This document shows positions 18,155 to 30,534 of a stretch of DNA of 64,000 nucleotides, piece by piece. The translations under genes were made by a program, and so were the position numbers. This DNA comes from Nitrososphaerales archaeon. Its GTDB lineage: Archaea; Thermoproteota; Nitrososphaeria; Nitrososphaerales; CADDZS01. The notes under the pieces are model-generated. The model saw only the letters and a list, made by a program, of their open reading frames with translations. It did not search any database and was not told the DNA's origin. Each line of letters starts with the position of its first letter. Positions within the stretch are counted from its first letter, which is position 1. Location: contig JASHOD010000115.1 in NCBI GenBank assembly GCA_030041295.1, positions 1 to 64,000 of the forward strand. Direction: 5' to 3'.

Positions 18155-20092
18155 TCATTTGTTTAATGTAGCGAGTACAACTTGTGCGGCCTTCCTGCTA
18201 ATATTTCCTGCCTGAGCAATTTCTTCAGGATTGGAATTTTTTATGGCATCAATTGAGCCAAAATGGGCAAGTAAATTTCTCTTTCTTTGCTCTCCGATGC
18301 CTTCGATGGAATCGAGAACGGATTCGGTCATCTTTCCTCCACGTAATCTTCTGTGGTATGTTACTCCGAATCTGTGTGCTTCATCTCTGATGTGCTGCAA
18401 TATGTGCAAGGCCTCAGAATCCTTCCCGAGCTTGATCGGAAAGACTCTCCTCGGAAGGAAGATTTCTTCTTCTCTTTTTGCAAGAGAAATGGTTGGGATC
18501 CCAAAAACGCCGTCGCGATGCATTTGTTCGATTGCGGCATTGAGCTGACCCTTTCCGCCATCGATTACGACCAAGTTTGGCGGTTCGCTGAACTTCTTCT
18601 TAGGTGAAGAGTTGGTCCTTTCTCCTACTTCTGCAACTTCTTTTTCTTCTCCAAGCAGGCGTCGAAATCTTCTGCCGATCATCTCTTGCATCATCGAGTA
18701 ATCATCTATGCCGCTCACGGTTTTGATTTTGAACTTTCTGTAAGAACTACGATCCGGGATACCGTCGACGAATACAGTCATCGCTCCAACTGCCTCTTCT
18801 CCGTGAATATTTGAAATGTCGTAGCACTCGATGCGTCTAGGAACTCGATCTAGACCTATTATTTCTTTGAGTTCCTTCAGAGCACGCAGTCTCTCTCTCT
18901 TTCTTACCTCGTCTTTTGATTCTTCTTCCTTTAGGACTAGCATTGCGTTTTCTTGCGCAAGTTTGAGTAATGCCTTGTTCTCTGGACTGTGCGCAGTAGT
19001 AGATATCTTGATTCGCTTATCTTCCAGCTGTTGTTCTTTGTTGCTAGCTTCAATCCTCCTTTCAAGCTGAGTATTCAATAGCAACTCGACTTCGTCCAAA
19101 TCTTCTAATTCATAAGGGACTACAATTTCCCTTGGCATTTCAAGAGTCTTGGATCCGTAATACTGTTTCATGAAAGCTGAGAGGATCTCGGAATCCTTTG
19201 TAGTCGAACTCGCACCTTCGAGAATGAACTTATCTCGTCCGACGACATTACCCTCTCTTACGTGAAATGCTATCGCTGCGATTATGCTGCCCTCTCGCGC
19301 AATAGTAAGAACGTCCTTGTCGCTTTTCTGATCTGGGAAGACTACTCGCTGTTTTAGTGCCGTTGTTTCTAGAGAGCGAATTTCGTCTCGAATCTTTCTG
19401 GCTTTCTCATAGTCCTGAGCTCTGGAAGCTTTCCACATCTCCGAATACATTTGTCTGCCTAATTGTACGAGCTTACCCTGTAGAAAAAGCTGGAATTTAG
19501 AAACGTCTGAATAATATTCAGTTTTAGAAACGGCGAAAATGCATGGGGCCTTGCATAAACCGATATTGTAGTCTATACAAGACTTGAATTTCTTCGCTCC
19601 GTCAAGAGGTAACGTGCATCCTCTGATTGGAAACATTTTCCTAAGGTATTTTACGGACCTTTTAGCGGCTCGGACATTTCCATAAGGGCCAAAGTATTTC
19701 CCGCCGTCATCTAGTACCTGGCGAGTGACAAACACTCTTGGATAGATTTCGTTCGTAATCTTGATGTACGGATAGCTCTTGTCGTCTTTTAACCTGATGT
19801 TGTACCGCGGCTTGTATCTCTTGATCAGGACGTTTTCTAAAATCAGAGCCTCGATCGGACTAGAAGTTATGATGTAATCCGCGCTTGTGATTTGATCTCT
19901 CAGGCTTTGTCCGACGGGATCTTCAAACCGAGGTCTGAGGTGCGCGAGTATCCTCGATTTGATACTCGTCGCTTTGCCGATGTATATCGGAGCCTCGGCT
20001 CGATTCTTTAGAATGTATACTCCGGCTAGAGTGGGGAGATTCTCAAAATTACCGAGCGGCGTTGACACTGTTCGTTGTTGCTTGAAGCTCAA
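18155..20092 (-). CDS. uvrC: UvrC, excinuclease ABC subunit C
   Basis: The 645-residue protein has all UvrC parts. They are an N-terminal GIY-YIG nuclease (GVYILKN...[13 protein letters not shown]) for the 3' incision, a Cys cluster (GCTL, SCID, LCKAPC) that can hold an Fe-S cluster, a UVR helix pair ([15 protein letters not shown]) for UvrB contact, an RNase-H-like domain ([20 protein letters not shown]) for the 5' incision and a helix-hairpin-helix end ([18 protein letters not shown]). The TTG start at 20092 overlaps the uvrA 3' end by 44 nt, so expression is probably coupled. Confidence 0.96.
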
Positions 20093-23000
20093 CTAGCTTC
20101 TTCTTATCCTCCTGTTCTTGTTCTTCTTCTCGTCGGCCTCTGCGAATATCCTCCAGCTGCCTATTTAGCTCCTTTTCCGCATTTGCAACCGCCCTAGCTC
20201 TTGAATCATTCAGGATGTGTTTTAGGAACTGTCCCGTGTAGGAAGTACCCGAATATGTCGAGACTTGCTCGGGTGTTCCTTCCGCTACAACTAACCCACC
20301 CGCCTCTCCTCCCTCCGGCCCAAGATCTATTATCCAGTCGGCGGTCTTGATAACGTCCAGGTTATGCTCTATCACAATGACGGAATTACCGGCATCTGTC
20401 AATCGTCCAAGCACCTCTAGTAGCTTCTTGATATCTTCGAAATGTAGTCCGGTTGTCGGCTCATCCAGCAAATACAGAGTCTTTCCTGTAGCTCTCTTCG
20501 AAAGTTCGGATGCTAATTTTACCCTTTGAGCTTCGCCACCAGATAATGTAGTCGCGGATTGACCCAAGGTTATGTAGCCAAGGCCGACGTCATTCAGGGT
20601 AGCTAACTTTCGTTTAATTTTCGGGATATTTTCGAAGAAACCAAGAGCTTCCTCGACCGTCATTTCGAGAACGTCCGAGATGCTTTTTGTCTTGTATCTT
20701 ATCTCGAGCGTTTCGCGGTTGTACCTCTTTCCCTTGCAGACTTCGCAGGGGACATACACGTCTGGTAGGAAGTGCATTTCCAAGCGAATGATTCCGTCTC
20801 CCTCGCAGGCTTCGCACCTGCCGCCACGTACGTTGAAACTGAACCTCCCAGTCTTGTATCCCCGCGCGATAGAGTCAGGCATCCTAGTATAGAGGTCTCT
20901 AATGTCTGTGAATACTCCGACATATGTTGCCGGGTTGGATCTAGGGGTTCTCCCTATGGGGGACTGGTCAATTATTATCGCCTTGTCGATGTTCTCGAGT
21001 CCAACTAACGAATCATAAGCTCCTGGCTTTTCTCTAGCTCCGTACAGTTTCTGTGCTAGCGCACGATACAAAATGTCATTGACAAGCGTACTCTTGCCGG
21101 AACCAGATACCCCGGTAATGCAGGTAAATATGCCGAGAGGAAACCGCACGTCAATGTTTCGTAAATTGTTCTCTTTAGCTCCTTTTATGATCAGATATTT
21201 ACCGTTGGGAGCTCTTCTTTTCGGCGGAATTTCGATCTGGCGCTTGCCTGAAAGATACTGACCGGTTATCGAGCTCTCGCTTGAAGCAATTTCATCTGGA
21301 GTCCCTATTGCGACAACATGACCACCATGAATTCCGGCGCCAGGCCCCAAGTCAACAACAAAATCCGATTCCCTAATTGTTTCTTCGTCGTGCTCGACGA
21401 CTAGTACAGTGTTCCCTAGGTCTCGTAGAGCCTTCAACGTCGCAATTAGTTTCCTATTATCCCTTTGATGCAACCCGATGCTAGGTTCGTCAAGTATGTA
21501 GAGAACTCCGACCAGACTGGAGCCTATCTGAGTAGCGAGCTGGATTCGCTGGGCTTCACCTCCAGAGAGAGAAGCAGCGGCGCGATCCAAAGTGAGATAA
21601 TCTAGACCGACGTTTAGTAGAAACCGCAGTCTCGCGTTGATTTCTTTGAGGATTTGTGACGCGATGACTCTTTCCTTTTCGGTAAGGCTCAAAGAAGAAA
21701 AGAAATTGATAGCTTGGCGAATTGAGAGCGAAGACACCTGCGATATTGATTTCCCGCCAACCGTCACCGCGAGAATCTCGGGTTTGTAGCGCTCTCCGCT
21801 GCACGATGGACAACGCTGGTTGCTGAGGAACTTTGCATACCACTCTTTCATAAAGTCGGACTCGGTCTCAAAGTAGCGGCGCTCGAGTTGCAGAAGAATA
21901 CCTTCGAACTCCCTTTCATAGAACCACCAGTGTCGCTCTCTTCTCACCCCGGAGGCTACAGTTTCATTTTGCGTTTCCTTCCTGCCGCTTTTGTTTCCAT
22001 ATAGAAGATAGTTGAGTTGCTCTCTTTTGAGCTTGTTGATCGGAGCATCCATGCTAAAGCCCGCCTTTCTTGCGACGCGCGCAAGCATTCGCATACTCCA
22101 AGAGTCGGTGTCAGACATGGTCACAATCGCTCCCTCGTTGATCGACTTGGTCTTGTCGGGTATTACGAGATCAGGATCCATGTTTAGAAGGTATCCCAGT
22201 CCAAGACATTGCTTGCATGCCCCGAATGGGCTATTGAATGAAAACATCCTAGGAGAGAGTTCTTCCAAGGAGAAACCGCAAGTAGGACAAGCCATCGCCT
22301 CGCTCAGGACAATTTCATTAGATGTGCCGCGAGTCTTGCGATCCTTTTCGTTTTGTGTAGGGGGTTCTCCGAGTACGAACACCACAGTTCCTTTGGAGAA
22401 ATTGAGAGCTGTTTGGATAGAGTCGGCCAGCCTCTTTTGGATTCCGTCTCTTACGATTAATCTATCTACGATCGCTTCGATTGTATGTTTCTTGTTCTTC
22501 TCAAGTGGTATCGTCTCGTCTTGGTCTAACTCGTAGACCGCGCCGTCCACTCTTACCCTAGAGTAGCCGTCGACCTTTAGGTCCTTGATGATATCCTTGT
22601 GTTCCCCCTTCTGGGATTTGATCAGCGGTCCCAGAACCTGAATCTTTGTTCCATCTTTTAGTTTCATTATCTGGTCGACCATCTGCTCCACGGTTTGCTT
22701 CTCAATCACCTTCTTGCAGTTTAGACAGTGGGGAATTCCAATTCTTGCGAACATAAGCCGGAGATAATCGTGAATCTCTGTCACGGTTGCGACGGTCGAT
22801 CTTGGGTTTTTCGCAGAACTTCTTTGCTCGATGGAAATCGCCGGAGAAAGTCCCTCGATATAATCGACATCCGGCTTGTCCATCTGCCCGAGGAATTGTC
22901 TTGCGTAAGCCGAGAGGGATTCGATGTAGCGCCTTTGCCCTTCGGCGTAGATTGTGTCAAAGGCGAGCGAAGACTTGCCCGAGCCGGAGAGACCCGTCAA

Positions 23001-23120
23001 AACAACAAATTTGTCACGCGGAATCTCAAGACTAATGTTCTTGAGATTGTGTTGTCTCGCGCCGCGGATGATTATTCGGTCTTTGGATTTCTTGATCGAA
23101 TAATCTAGCTGCTCGGGCAT
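20049..23120 (-). CDS. uvrA: UvrA, excinuclease ABC subunit A
   Basis: The protein of about 1,023 residues is a full UvrA with two ABC ATPase modules (GLSGSGKSS and GVSGSGKST Walker A motifs, two LSGGEAQR signatures) and Cys-pair zinc modules (CPTCG...CKQC and CEACEGDG...CEVC). It recognises bulky DNA damage and loads UvrB. ATG 23120 is chosen, with upstream codons looking non-coding. The C-terminal 60 residues form a charged Glu/Arg/Gln-rich extension beyond the usual end. uvrB is not in the window. Confidence 0.97.
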
Positions 23121-23309
23121 GATTGTATTATGCTTGTTTAGTTCGGATGAGGACAAGATAGATTCATTTCTTTCCAATTTTTTAGAAAAAATTGTGCGTA
23201 GATCCAATCTACAGCTAAATTCAATCAATTAACTGTTTATGCTATCCGAGGCATACAGCAATCGCTAAAGTAGATAATAATTACTGCATTTTTACTGCAT
23301 AATCCGTAT

Positions 23310-27789: not shown

Positions 27790-29147
27790 GACGAATATTA
27801 GCCATGCTGCCAACGATGATTATTTCGCAGACGGACTGACCGAAGAACTCATCTCTAGACTATCGCTTGTTAGAAGCCTCAAAGTAATTTCGCCGAACTC
27901 CGACAATGAAATACAAGGGAAAGAATGAGGCGCTTACACACATTGGAAAAGAGCTCGGTTGCGGAGTTTTGGTGGAGGGAAGTGTGCGTAAAGCCTGTAA
28001 CAGAATAAGGGTGACAGTTCAGGTAATCGACCCGAACAACGAAGAGCATCTGTGGTCTTCAAGTCTCGGCGATATATTTGCCGTTCAAGACGAAATAGCA
28101 AGAAAAGTAAGTGAGTCTCTTCCGAATTATGTTTTGACTGAAAAGCTCGAACTGGGTACTGCTCCCCCCGATACAAAAAACGTCGAAGCTTACACCTGTT
28201 ATCTGAAAGCAATGAAAGTATACAAGGAAAGCACGAAAGATTCACTGAATCGGGCACTGGAACTCTTTACCAAGGCTACCCAACTGGATCCGAATTTTGC
28301 TCGAGCACACATCGGGTTGGGCAACTGCTACCCCGAACTGGGAGCAAAGAGTATGATGCCATAAGACGAAGGGTTGCAACGCATGAAGGCTGCCGCCCTC
28401 AGAGCACTTCAGATAAATGACAAGCTAGCCGAGGCGCATACACTTATGTCGAATCTGGCGTGGGCAGAAGACGACTTTCAGACCGAGGAAAGAGAAGCCC
28501 GAATAGCTATTCGGCTTAATCCAAACCTCGCTGAGGCGCATTACATTCTGGGAAGATTTCTCATGACTACAGGTTATCCTCAATCTTTTCTAAAGTCGTT
28601 AGAAACGGCACACAACCTTGATCCTCTATCGTCCCACTACGCCAGGTACCTTGGACTCATACTGGCTTTCGCAGGGAGGGATCAGGAGGCTCTGGATCTA
28701 CTGAATAAATACGTCACAGCCGCTCCCTTCGAGATGCATCTAGCGAAGGCAGAATATTATCTCGGGAAGAAGGAGTTTGATCAAGCCGACACGGAAATCA
28801 AGGAATTAGAAGTTCTATCGCCGTCAGATTTTCATACACTATCTTTCCGCGGGTTTTTCTTCGCAATGAAAAAGGACAAGGATAGAATTCAGAAAATAAT
28901 CAGGCAATTGGACCATGATTTCAGTGGAGGGGCGACGCTTGACCGCACAATAGGATACTTCGCTTACATGTTTGGAGACATGGGTGGATTATTCGGCGCA
29001 ATGTCAAGAGCCGTCGAAGGACATGTCTTCGACCCATTCAGAATGCGCTACTCTCCAATCTTTGAAAGTGCTAGAAGAGACCCTCGGTATCGTGAACTGA
29101 TGAAGAAGCATGGTATCGATCCCGATTTGAAGGAGCCATTCTCCTAG
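27790..29147 (+). pseudogene. Decayed FlgO-like/TPR-repeat gene (adenylate-cyclase-associated type)
   Basis: Three stretches together read as one protein. The first (about 27800-27905) encodes YFADGLTEELISRLSLVRSL. A one-base shift near 27900 leads to 27906-28361 with KYKGKNEALTHIGKELG and LVEGSVRKACNRIRVTVQVID. Then TAA at 28362-28364 replaces the Tyr codon expected in the family, and the same frame continues to 29147 with several TPR helices (DKLAEAHTLMSNLAW, PNLAEAHYILGRF). The family is common in bacteria behind cyclase or winged-helix domains. The N-terminus is missing. A shorter TPR protein starting at TTG 28374 might still be made. Confidence 0.75.
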
Positions 29148-29157
29148 TCTCTTGTCC

Positions 29158-30534
29158 CTAGGAACTTGCGCCCTGCGGATCAGTTGACTTTTTCTGTCTG
29201 TGTCGTTGTACTGATTTCAACACCTCCGAAGAAGCAAGTGCGTCCCGATCGAAATACTCCGCGACCTCGTAATTTGTTTCTAGGCGTAGTGCCCATTTTG
29301 TTTTGAACGTAATATCGGTATCGTAATTTCCGCTTTCCCTCACAATCAAGTGAGTCAGAGGAACTTCCAAATTCGCAAGCCTGGCTTTCGTAGCTTCTAT
29401 CATGCTGTCGTGTCTCGACGAGGAGATACCAATTATCGCCCGGCCGGATTCCACTTGCTTGTAAGCGTCGTTCTTTCCCTGCTCAATCAGGAGATCAAGC
29501 TCGGCGTACTTTGGACTGTTGTAAAGGTCCCAGAATTTATCTCGCAATTCTTTATCATGAATATCAGAAGCCCTCATCGATGGAGACAGGCCGAGTTCCT
29601 GCATAGCCGCGCGTCTTCTCGGCAGCGGATCTAGCATCGTGCTATCGACGTCAAAAACTGCAATTTTCGACCCTTTTGGGAGGGAATCGATCAAAAACGG
29701 ATTGCAACGTTCAGAGTAAGCACAGCGCTCGCATTGGACAAAATCTCTGTTAAATGAAGCCTCCTTTTGAGGCAGGAGATTTTGTTTGAGAGCTTCGTGC
29801 AATTCGAAGACTCGCTCGCGCAATACAATTTGCATCACGTCATCTTTGGGGATTGAGAAGGCCTTGACTCCCCCGCCTCTCTTCGCCCAGTACAGTAAAA
29901 CACCAATTGGAAAATTCTTGGCAAGAAGATATGTCGAGAGCTGGTAATAATGAGCCTGTTTTGGTTCCTCGGGAAGCGTTCCGATACTCTTGATTTCAAG
30001 CGGGATGAATAGTTTGAAATCCTGCGAATCCTCATCTGTAATTCTGATCAGCAGCAGGTCGTCGATTCTGCCATGCAACTTTGCTTCGCCGTCCGCGAAC
30101 TCCAAATCAACGACAACTTCTCTACCCTCGACTGAAATCAGCCCCGATCTTCGTAGAGCGATTGCAATTAGTTCGTGGATCGCCCTACCCTCGCCGAATA
30201 TTGCCAAGTCTTCCTTGCTAGGGGGAATTGGCGCAGTGTATGAGTAAGCCTGCTGACGAAGACAGCGTTCTATCATACTGGGGTAGTAGGAACCTAGCCT
30301 GAACTTGTGATTCGCAGATTCTGCTTCCCATTCTGAATGCATACCCTCGTGAAGAGCATCCTCAATCATCGAGGAAATTTTCGCTGGCTTGTCTAGAATC
30401 TTTGCGACCCATTTCTCGAACTTCATCCTTTCTTCCACAGAGAGAGCATTAGGATCTGTAGGGTCGTGAAGGAAAGAGTCTAGTGAAGATGCCAAATAGA
30501 AAGGACTGCCTAACGCAATCAGAATTACCTTCAC
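29158..30534 (-). CDS. Cas4-like PD-(D/E)XK nuclease fused to a HAD-superfamily phosphatase
   Basis: The 458-residue protein has two domains. Residues about 80-280 resemble Cas4/RecB-type exonucleases: Cys91, His120, Asp158 in GRIDD, Glu180-x-Lys182 in PLEIKS, Gln198 in YYQLSTY, and Cys268, Cys271 and Cys277, which with Cys91 would hold a 4Fe-4S cluster. Residues about 289-440 are a HAD domain with DVDST (Asp295, Asp297), motif II GISSSR, Lys411 or Lys413 and an acidic EYFDRD (Asp429, Asp431). The SSR...LIVRES...D...FKTK...DRD order resembles polynucleotide 3'-phosphatases. It would trim DNA and clean its ends, by inference. No cas genes or CRISPR array are nearby. Confidence 0.78.
   Translation of the reverse strand: MKVILIALGSPFYLASSLDSFLHDPTDPNALSVEERMKFEKWVAKILDKPAKISSMIEDALHEGMHSEWEAESANHKFRLGSYYPSMIERCLRQQAYSYTAPIPPSKEDLAIFGEGRAIHELIAIALRRSGLISVEGREVVVDLEFADGEAKLHGRIDDLLLIRITDEDSQDFKLFIPLEIKSIGTLPEEPKQAHYYQLSTYLLAKNFPIGVLLYWAKRGGGVKAFSIPKDDVMQIVLRERVFELHEALKQNLLPQKEASFNRDFVQCERCAYSERCNPFLIDSLPKGSKIAVFDVDSTMLDPLPRRRAAMQELGLSPSMRASDIHDKELRDKFWDLYNSPKYAELDLLIEQGKNDAYKQVESGRAIIGISSSRHDSMIEATKARLANLEVPLTHLIVRESGNYDTDITFKTKWALRLETNYEVAEYFDRDALASSEVLKSVQRHRQKKSTDPQGASS

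Follow-up and report, generated by a model that had tools for sequence, protein, structure and literature searches.

The genome of a soil-dwelling Nitrososphaerales archaeon (G000; 3.68 Mb on 159 contigs) encodes a protein in which a Cas4-like nuclease is followed by a phosphatase-type HAD domain. The locus raises the question of whether one enzyme could both resect DNA and clear its blocked 3' ends, as a first-pass annotation of the window (the whole stretch of DNA that was analysed, 64,000 nucleotides of one contig) had proposed. Cas4 phylogenomics has described solo-Cas4 proteins as well as UvrD-Cas4 or Cas1-Cas4 fusions, and solo-Cas4 is widespread in archaea, where its non-CRISPR role is uncharacterised (PMC5704561). 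The main text of that study contains neither "phosphatase" nor "thaumarch", and the whole words "nuclease" and "haloacid" are likewise absent from a survey of archaeal fusions (PMC11237513). We found no published description of a Cas4-HAD fusion, and subscription papers or supplements could hold one.

A nuclease and a phosphatase-type domain in one protein

The protein combines a Cas4/SSO0001-type Fe-S nuclease with a HAD domain of the PNKP/T4 Pnkp type. The fused reading frame that had been annotated is real: it spans 458 codons, both of its halves are matched by profiles and the fusion recurs in relatives. Its features are as follows, with residue numbers throughout given in the 458-amino-acid frame that begins at the GTG.

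29158..30534, minus strand: open reading frame of the fused Cas4-like nuclease and PNKP-type HAD protein, 458 amino acids from the GTG at 30534
29695..30357, minus strand: Cas4-like PD-(D/E)XK Fe-S nuclease domain, residues ~60-280 (profiles, invariant residues, Foldseek)
30262..30264, minus strand: Cys91, the N-terminal Fe-S cysteine (invariant)
29989..30060, minus strand: nuclease motifs GRID (D159) and ExK (E180, K182) (invariant)
29704..29733, minus strand: Cys268-x2-Cys271-x5-Cys277, the C-terminal Fe-S cysteines (invariant; spacing as in Pcal_0546 and SSO0001)
29206..29673, minus strand: HAD domain of the PNKP 3'-phosphatase type, residues ~288-443 (profiles, structure model)
29644..29652, minus strand: HAD motif I, DVD (D295 nucleophile, D297 acid/base; both invariant in the window's family, f1)
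29413..29421, minus strand: HAD motif II, SSR (S372, R374; R374 aligns with T4 Pnkp R213; alignments)
29302..29304, minus strand: HAD motif III, Lys411 (invariant throughout the alignment of fused and standalone HADs)
29242..29250, minus strand: HAD motif IV, DRD (D429, R430, D431), with Arg for the second Asp of the canonical DD (alignments)

A TTG at 30493-30495 (residue 14), which five relatives also have at the corresponding position, is a likelier start than the GTG at 30534 and would give a protein of about 445 amino acids. The AlphaFold2 model has a mean pLDDT of 91 and a pTM of 0.82 for the whole protein, and a pLDDT of 96 for the HAD domain.

The first-pass annotation of the N-terminal half as a Cas4-like PD-(D/E)XK nuclease with four candidate Fe-S cysteines is borne out. 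The window protein matches TIGR00372 cas4 with an E value of 1.4e-6 (28.3 bits, below the cut-off of 65 bits), PF12705 PDDEXK_1 (E 4e-4) and the CRISPR/Cas-associated phrog_1706 (E 2.4e-16). It gave no match to the Pfam Cas4 family PF01930, whose cut-off is passed by three fused relatives (L066, L067 and L030). A profile of nuclease halves and solo archaeal Cas4-like proteins reached SSO0001 (4ic1) at 6e-16 and the Cas4 family exonuclease 4r5q at 0.004. The top Foldseek match was again 4ic1 (E 8e-9, TMt 0.70), and further matches included 8d3l Cas4-Cas1-Cas2, lambda exonuclease and EXO5. Across eight aligned fused homologues Cys91, Cys268, Cys271 and Cys277 are invariant, as are H120, D159, E180, K182, Q198, Y202 and Y215. 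Pcal_0546 needs Asp123, Glu136, Gln149, Tyr153 and Tyr166 for Cas4 activity and holds its Fe-S cluster with cysteines 64, 200, 203 and 209, and the C-terminal cluster cysteines of SSO0001 are Cys188/191/197 (PMC4176176). The spacings of the window nuclease are identical to those of Pcal_0546, with a tyrosine four residues after the glutamine, another 13 beyond that and the Cx2Cx5C cysteines.

The window nuclease thus resembles Cas4 and solo-Cas4 (SSO0001, 4ic1; Pcal_0546, 4r5q) in its PD-(D/E)XK fold, its H/D/ExK/QxxxY residues, the tyrosine 13 beyond the QxxxY Tyr and the Cys plus Cx2Cx5C spacing. It differs from them in its C-terminal HAD, its longer N-terminus and its TIGR00372 score (28 vs 65 bits). 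Like solo-Cas4, it has a CRISPR-independent location and a mainly vertical inheritance (PMC5704561). The UvrD-Cas4 helicase-nuclease fusions also place a Cas4-like nuclease within a repair/defence fusion (PMC5704561), but their partner is a helicase whereas the partner here is a phosphatase-type domain.

The C-terminal half of the window protein matches phrog_415 polynucleotide kinase (E 9.4e-6), and a Pfam search with its HAD alone reached no family. A profile of fused and standalone HAD homologues matched the PDB sequences of Pnkp1 (4xrp, 1.4e-13), VSP1 (8e-9) and T4 Pnkp (2e-7). Two standalone archaeal relatives pass the cut-off of Pfam HAD_PNKP (PF25109; E 2.7e-17 and 5.7e-16), and the fused L066 scores 21.8 bits against a cut-off of 27.6. 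Foldseek returned Pnkp1 (4xru/4xrp), T4 Pnkp (5uj0 and 1ltq), AphA and VSP1. The modelled HAD superimposes on T4 Pnkp with a TM score of 0.69-0.70. VSP1 and the acid phosphatases of classes B and C fit about as well, so that comparison of predicted folds by itself cannot tell PNKP from such acid phosphatases. It is the sequence profile and the Pfam results that favour PNKP. A metabolic HAD was rejected, as Pfam Hydrolase, Acid_phosphat_B and the NCBIfam phosphoglycolate phosphatases scored below HAD_PNKP for the standalone L044 and L054. The motif order of the PNKP/PseT type that had been noticed at first pass is supported, with matches of the homologue profile to Pnkp1 and T4 Pnkp and with the DxD, S/T-x-R and Lys motifs present, and the sequence appears to fit PNKP better than it fits metabolic phosphatases.

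With the 3'-phosphatase of T4 Pnkp and the PNKP family (PF25109; 1ltq, 5uj0) and with Pnkp1 (4xrp), the window HAD shares the fold, a motif I DxD followed by Arg, the motif II S/T-x-R, the R..G..D...K stretch and the first Asp of motif IV. Unlike these enzymes, it has no kinase domain, is fused to a nuclease, reads D-R instead of D-D in motif IV and itself falls below the Pfam cut-off. Its direct homologues are archaeal standalone PNKP-like HADs (f81, f43, f41 and others), which mostly have an intact DxD, TGR, RxxGDxRxDxxxK and an acidic motif IV (DD, ED or HEDD); unlike the fused HAD, they are separate genes of about 165-200 amino acids. Two PNKP-like HADs (L040:520-2082 and L115:1408-2313) have an extra C-terminal region.

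The kinship with Pnkp1 also admits a different substrate. The HAD could be an RNA end-healing or nucleotide phosphatase, the fusion then working on the ends of RNA or on nucleotides that its nuclease has released. Pnkp1, which gave the best PDB sequence match, belongs to an RNA repair complex, the fit of acid phosphatases and VSP1 would suit this reading, and the fused gene of G024 (f17) adjoins tiaS, a tRNA-modification gene. The tiaS adjacency was found one time only, however, DNA is the substrate of the characterised Cas4 nucleases (PMC4176176, PMC12538437), and standalone HADs are linked to a uracil-DNA glycosylase. We regard an RNA or nucleotide substrate as improbable.

Distribution and history of the fusion

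The fused gene is present in eight of the nine genomes of f1, the ninth being 67% complete; in one of the eight (G007) it runs off the contig end inside the HAD. Other carriers belong to deeper Thermoproteota lineages: f17 (G024), f61 (G348, G729), f83 (G446, G449, G469) and f86 (G472). In a further f61 genome (G270) the gene was seen as two pieces on two contigs. Far from being absent in all relatives, the fusion occurs in other genera and families and in independent assemblies, which rules out an assembly artefact. Family f82 has the nuclease followed by an eroded HAD without motifs I and II, which the HAD profile recovers with an hhalign probability of 96.8 (E 2.9e-10). In f84 the nuclease stands by itself, a search of nine genomes having turned up no HAD, and f81 has the HAD alone. 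In more distant Thermoproteota the nuclease and the HAD are separate, non-adjacent genes, and no adjacent but unfused pair was seen among the genomes that hold both. A first scan of genome contigs with the single window protein gave no match, and one restrictive pattern scan was the probe for occurrence outside Thermoproteota.

In the nuclease tree all fused members together with f82 and f84 form one group, whose support of 84/55 is not strong. Within it f84 and f82 are sisters (91/91) inside the fused set, and a topology that holds the HAD-bearing members apart from f84 was rejected (p = 0.03). The HAD tree unites f1, f17 and f61 (95/95), and a single clade of all fused HADs was not rejected (p = 0.36). 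The gene lies at conserved loci across f82, f83 and f86. Its neighbours are TBP and signal-peptidase-like genes in f82 and f83, and a thermosome-type gene, assigned by eye, in f82 and f86. The simplest history suggested by these comparisons is that the two domains fused once and that the HAD later decayed and was lost within a single taxonomic order, the one searched, to which f82, f83, f84 and f86 all belong. The fusion itself is judged to be old. The best reading of the HAD half is that it descended from a standalone PNKP-type 3'-phosphatase and was originally a catalytic 3'-end module.

Conservation and decay of the HAD active site

Six T4 Pnkp residues that matter for catalysis, D165, D167, R176, R213, K258 and D277, align with D295, D297, R306, R374, K411 and D429 of the window protein. 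Among seven f1 members with 48-83% HAD identity, D295, D297, S372, R374, K411 and D429 are invariant (six of six core positions). Since only 28% of HAD columns are invariant in f1, this conservation argues for a constrained active site. The hypergeometric enrichment has p = 4e-4, and a wider list, with seven of nine positions invariant, has p = 0.002. The core positions were picked by T4 Pnkp homology, but columns are not independent by descent, so these values serve as a guide only. The family f17 also retains the DxD.

Other observations point the opposite way. All aligned f1 members have Arg430 in place of the second motif-IV Asp (T4 D278), and this Asp is lost in every fused HAD aligned. 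In 16 fused genes with a readable motif I the nucleophile is Asp in nine (eight of f1, one of f17) and is replaced in seven, by Glu in f61 (3) and f83 (3) and by Ser in f86 (1). Four further genes have lost HAD motif I altogether. One f83 genome (G449) encodes, in addition to its fused HAD with Glu as the nucleophile (ExD), a separate HAD in which the DxD is intact and which is of the kind with the extra C-terminal region. The HAD half has also changed faster than the nuclease half: 28% of its columns are invariant in f1, vs 54%. The one usable dN/dS value, for the nuclease half, is 0.02, with synonymous sites saturated.

Across the fusion-bearing families the phosphatase half is, by these alignments, dispensable and subject to decay, because its nucleophile is Glu or Ser in f61, f83 and f86, its motif is gone in f82 and the whole domain is absent in f84. 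The HAD might accordingly be read as a pseudo-phosphatase that has kept its fold and a pocket for phosphate or the DNA end, and that binds or positions the end for the nuclease and does not catalyse. The substituted nucleophiles, the erosion in f82 and absence in f84, the altered motif-IV DD, the second HAD of G449 and the faster evolution of this half all favour such a reading. It sits poorly with the six invariant core residues of f1 and with the DxD of f17, and we consider it rather unlikely. For f1 itself the chances of HAD catalysis appear about even, because its active site is constrained but R430 and the dead relatives speak against activity.

The idea of one enzyme that resects DNA and clears 3' ends survives in part and is weakened as a general claim. 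In f1 the nucleophile, the acid, the motif II Ser/Arg and the Lys are kept, which leaves activity there plausible; against the idea stand the lost second Asp of motif IV, the lost nucleophile of some relatives and the HAD-less family nested in the fusion clade. A bifunctional end-repair enzyme that is active in this lineage and whose HAD dephosphorylates the 3' end exposed by its own nuclease half, its HAD having become a non-catalytic DNA-end module and then been lost in relatives, is a tentative reading that we hold at distinctly less than even confidence.

Genomic context and a proposed role in DNA-end repair

The absence of CRISPR genes near the locus, noted at first pass, is upheld. No cas genes were seen near the fused gene and no cas1 on the window's contig; the only Cas1-family matches in G000 lie on other contigs (C6:1090-1938 and C149:8031-8219) and may be of either CRISPR or casposon type. 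The view of the protein as a Cas4 derivative recruited to CRISPR adaptation or antiviral defence could draw on its Cas4 homology and on the Cas1 homologues of some f1 genomes, G000 included. Four f1 members, all drafts (G004, G005, G006, G008), nevertheless have the fused gene without any cas1 match, and f82 and f83 show synteny with housekeeping genes such as TBP. The fused protein had no match in phages and none in viral contigs with the patterns used, and plasmids gave one weak match to the Cas4 part only. Such a factor seems very improbable.

No repair operon surrounds the fused gene; the neighbours that are conserved in f1 comprise small ORFs and a gene for a winged-helix membrane protein. 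The standalone HADs of f81 lie adjacent to, or one gene away from, a uracil-DNA glycosylase at six of six loci in six genomes. The one glycosylase tested matches PF03167 (E 6.9e-40), the rest are 53-92% identical homologues, and by eye the enzyme looks to be of family 4. This linkage points to DNA repair, and the f81 HAD/UDG cluster is a candidate archaeal base-excision-repair cluster. Beta,delta-elimination in base excision repair leaves 3'-phosphates, so a 3'-phosphatase would fit there. A repair role, which the first-pass annotation had called likely, gains from this linkage and from the lack of cas genes nearby. On the other side of the HAD, the f81 loci (L142, L143, L144, L092-L097) have a conserved protein of ~122 amino acids with no Pfam match. 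The HAD-less Cas4-like gene divergently adjoins a short SMC/RecN-type ATPase gene in three genomes, all from a single f84 genus (L084/L138, one genome, L138:6446-8991; L085; L089).

All f1 genomes with the fusion have Nfo (EndoIV), and most have a LigD-type phosphoesterase (not found in G001); Xth was found in none of them. The HAD would therefore be a second route for 3'-end clearing in f1, and its being the sole 3'-end cleaner is out, given Nfo in all of these genomes.

Other partners were considered and set aside. In G006 a gene for a stand-alone LigD 3'-phosphoesterase domain (L026:422-1039) lies about 2 kb upstream of the fused gene, and Ku was not found in that genome. A partner role in NHEJ was rejected, with Ku absent or weakly matched and the LigD phosphoesterase adjacency restricted to the G006 locus. 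An MGMT link in the window was not seen at relatives' loci. The window has overlapping bacterial-type uvrC and uvrA genes (18158-20092 and 20052-23228, minus strand), G001 and G003 have uvrC/uvrA within a few kb of the fused gene, and uvrB is nearby in G003. A uvrA/uvrC link was dropped: in the genus, three genomes have these genes no more than some kb away, but they form no operon and were not so placed in other genera. Two consecutive TPR ORFs of the window (27906-28364 and 28374-29147, plus strand) may be one gene, possibly frameshifted.

The explanation that we prefer, at a confidence just short of even, is a housekeeping, non-CRISPR repair nuclease that processes DNA ends, with a linked HAD that clears 3' ends. 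The Cas4-like half, an Fe-S stapled PD-(D/E)XK nuclease, would trim or resect single-stranded or branched DNA at breaks. At a damaged break the nuclease would take away the 5' strand or flap, the HAD would then act on the 3' end exposed by resection and remove a 3'-phosphate, and the unblocked 3' end could prime synthesis or be ligated. Cleavage by PD-(D/E)XK enzymes leaves 3'-OH ends, so the phosphatase would not be needed for the nuclease's own products. Beyond the fusion and the kept residues we infer every step of this scheme, including the substrates, the choice of DNA over RNA and the 3'-phosphatase activity, which f1 may have kept but several relatives have lost.

Functional clues of this sort are rare: the fused 3'-end phosphatase-type domain points to the kind of DNA end that such a nuclease may meet. 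The graded series of HADs, which runs from apparently intact through nucleophile-dead and eroded to absent, would allow a direct test of whether the nuclease needs end cleaning. In archaea a PNKP-like 3'-phosphatase may serve base excision repair, as the UDG-linked standalone HADs suggest.
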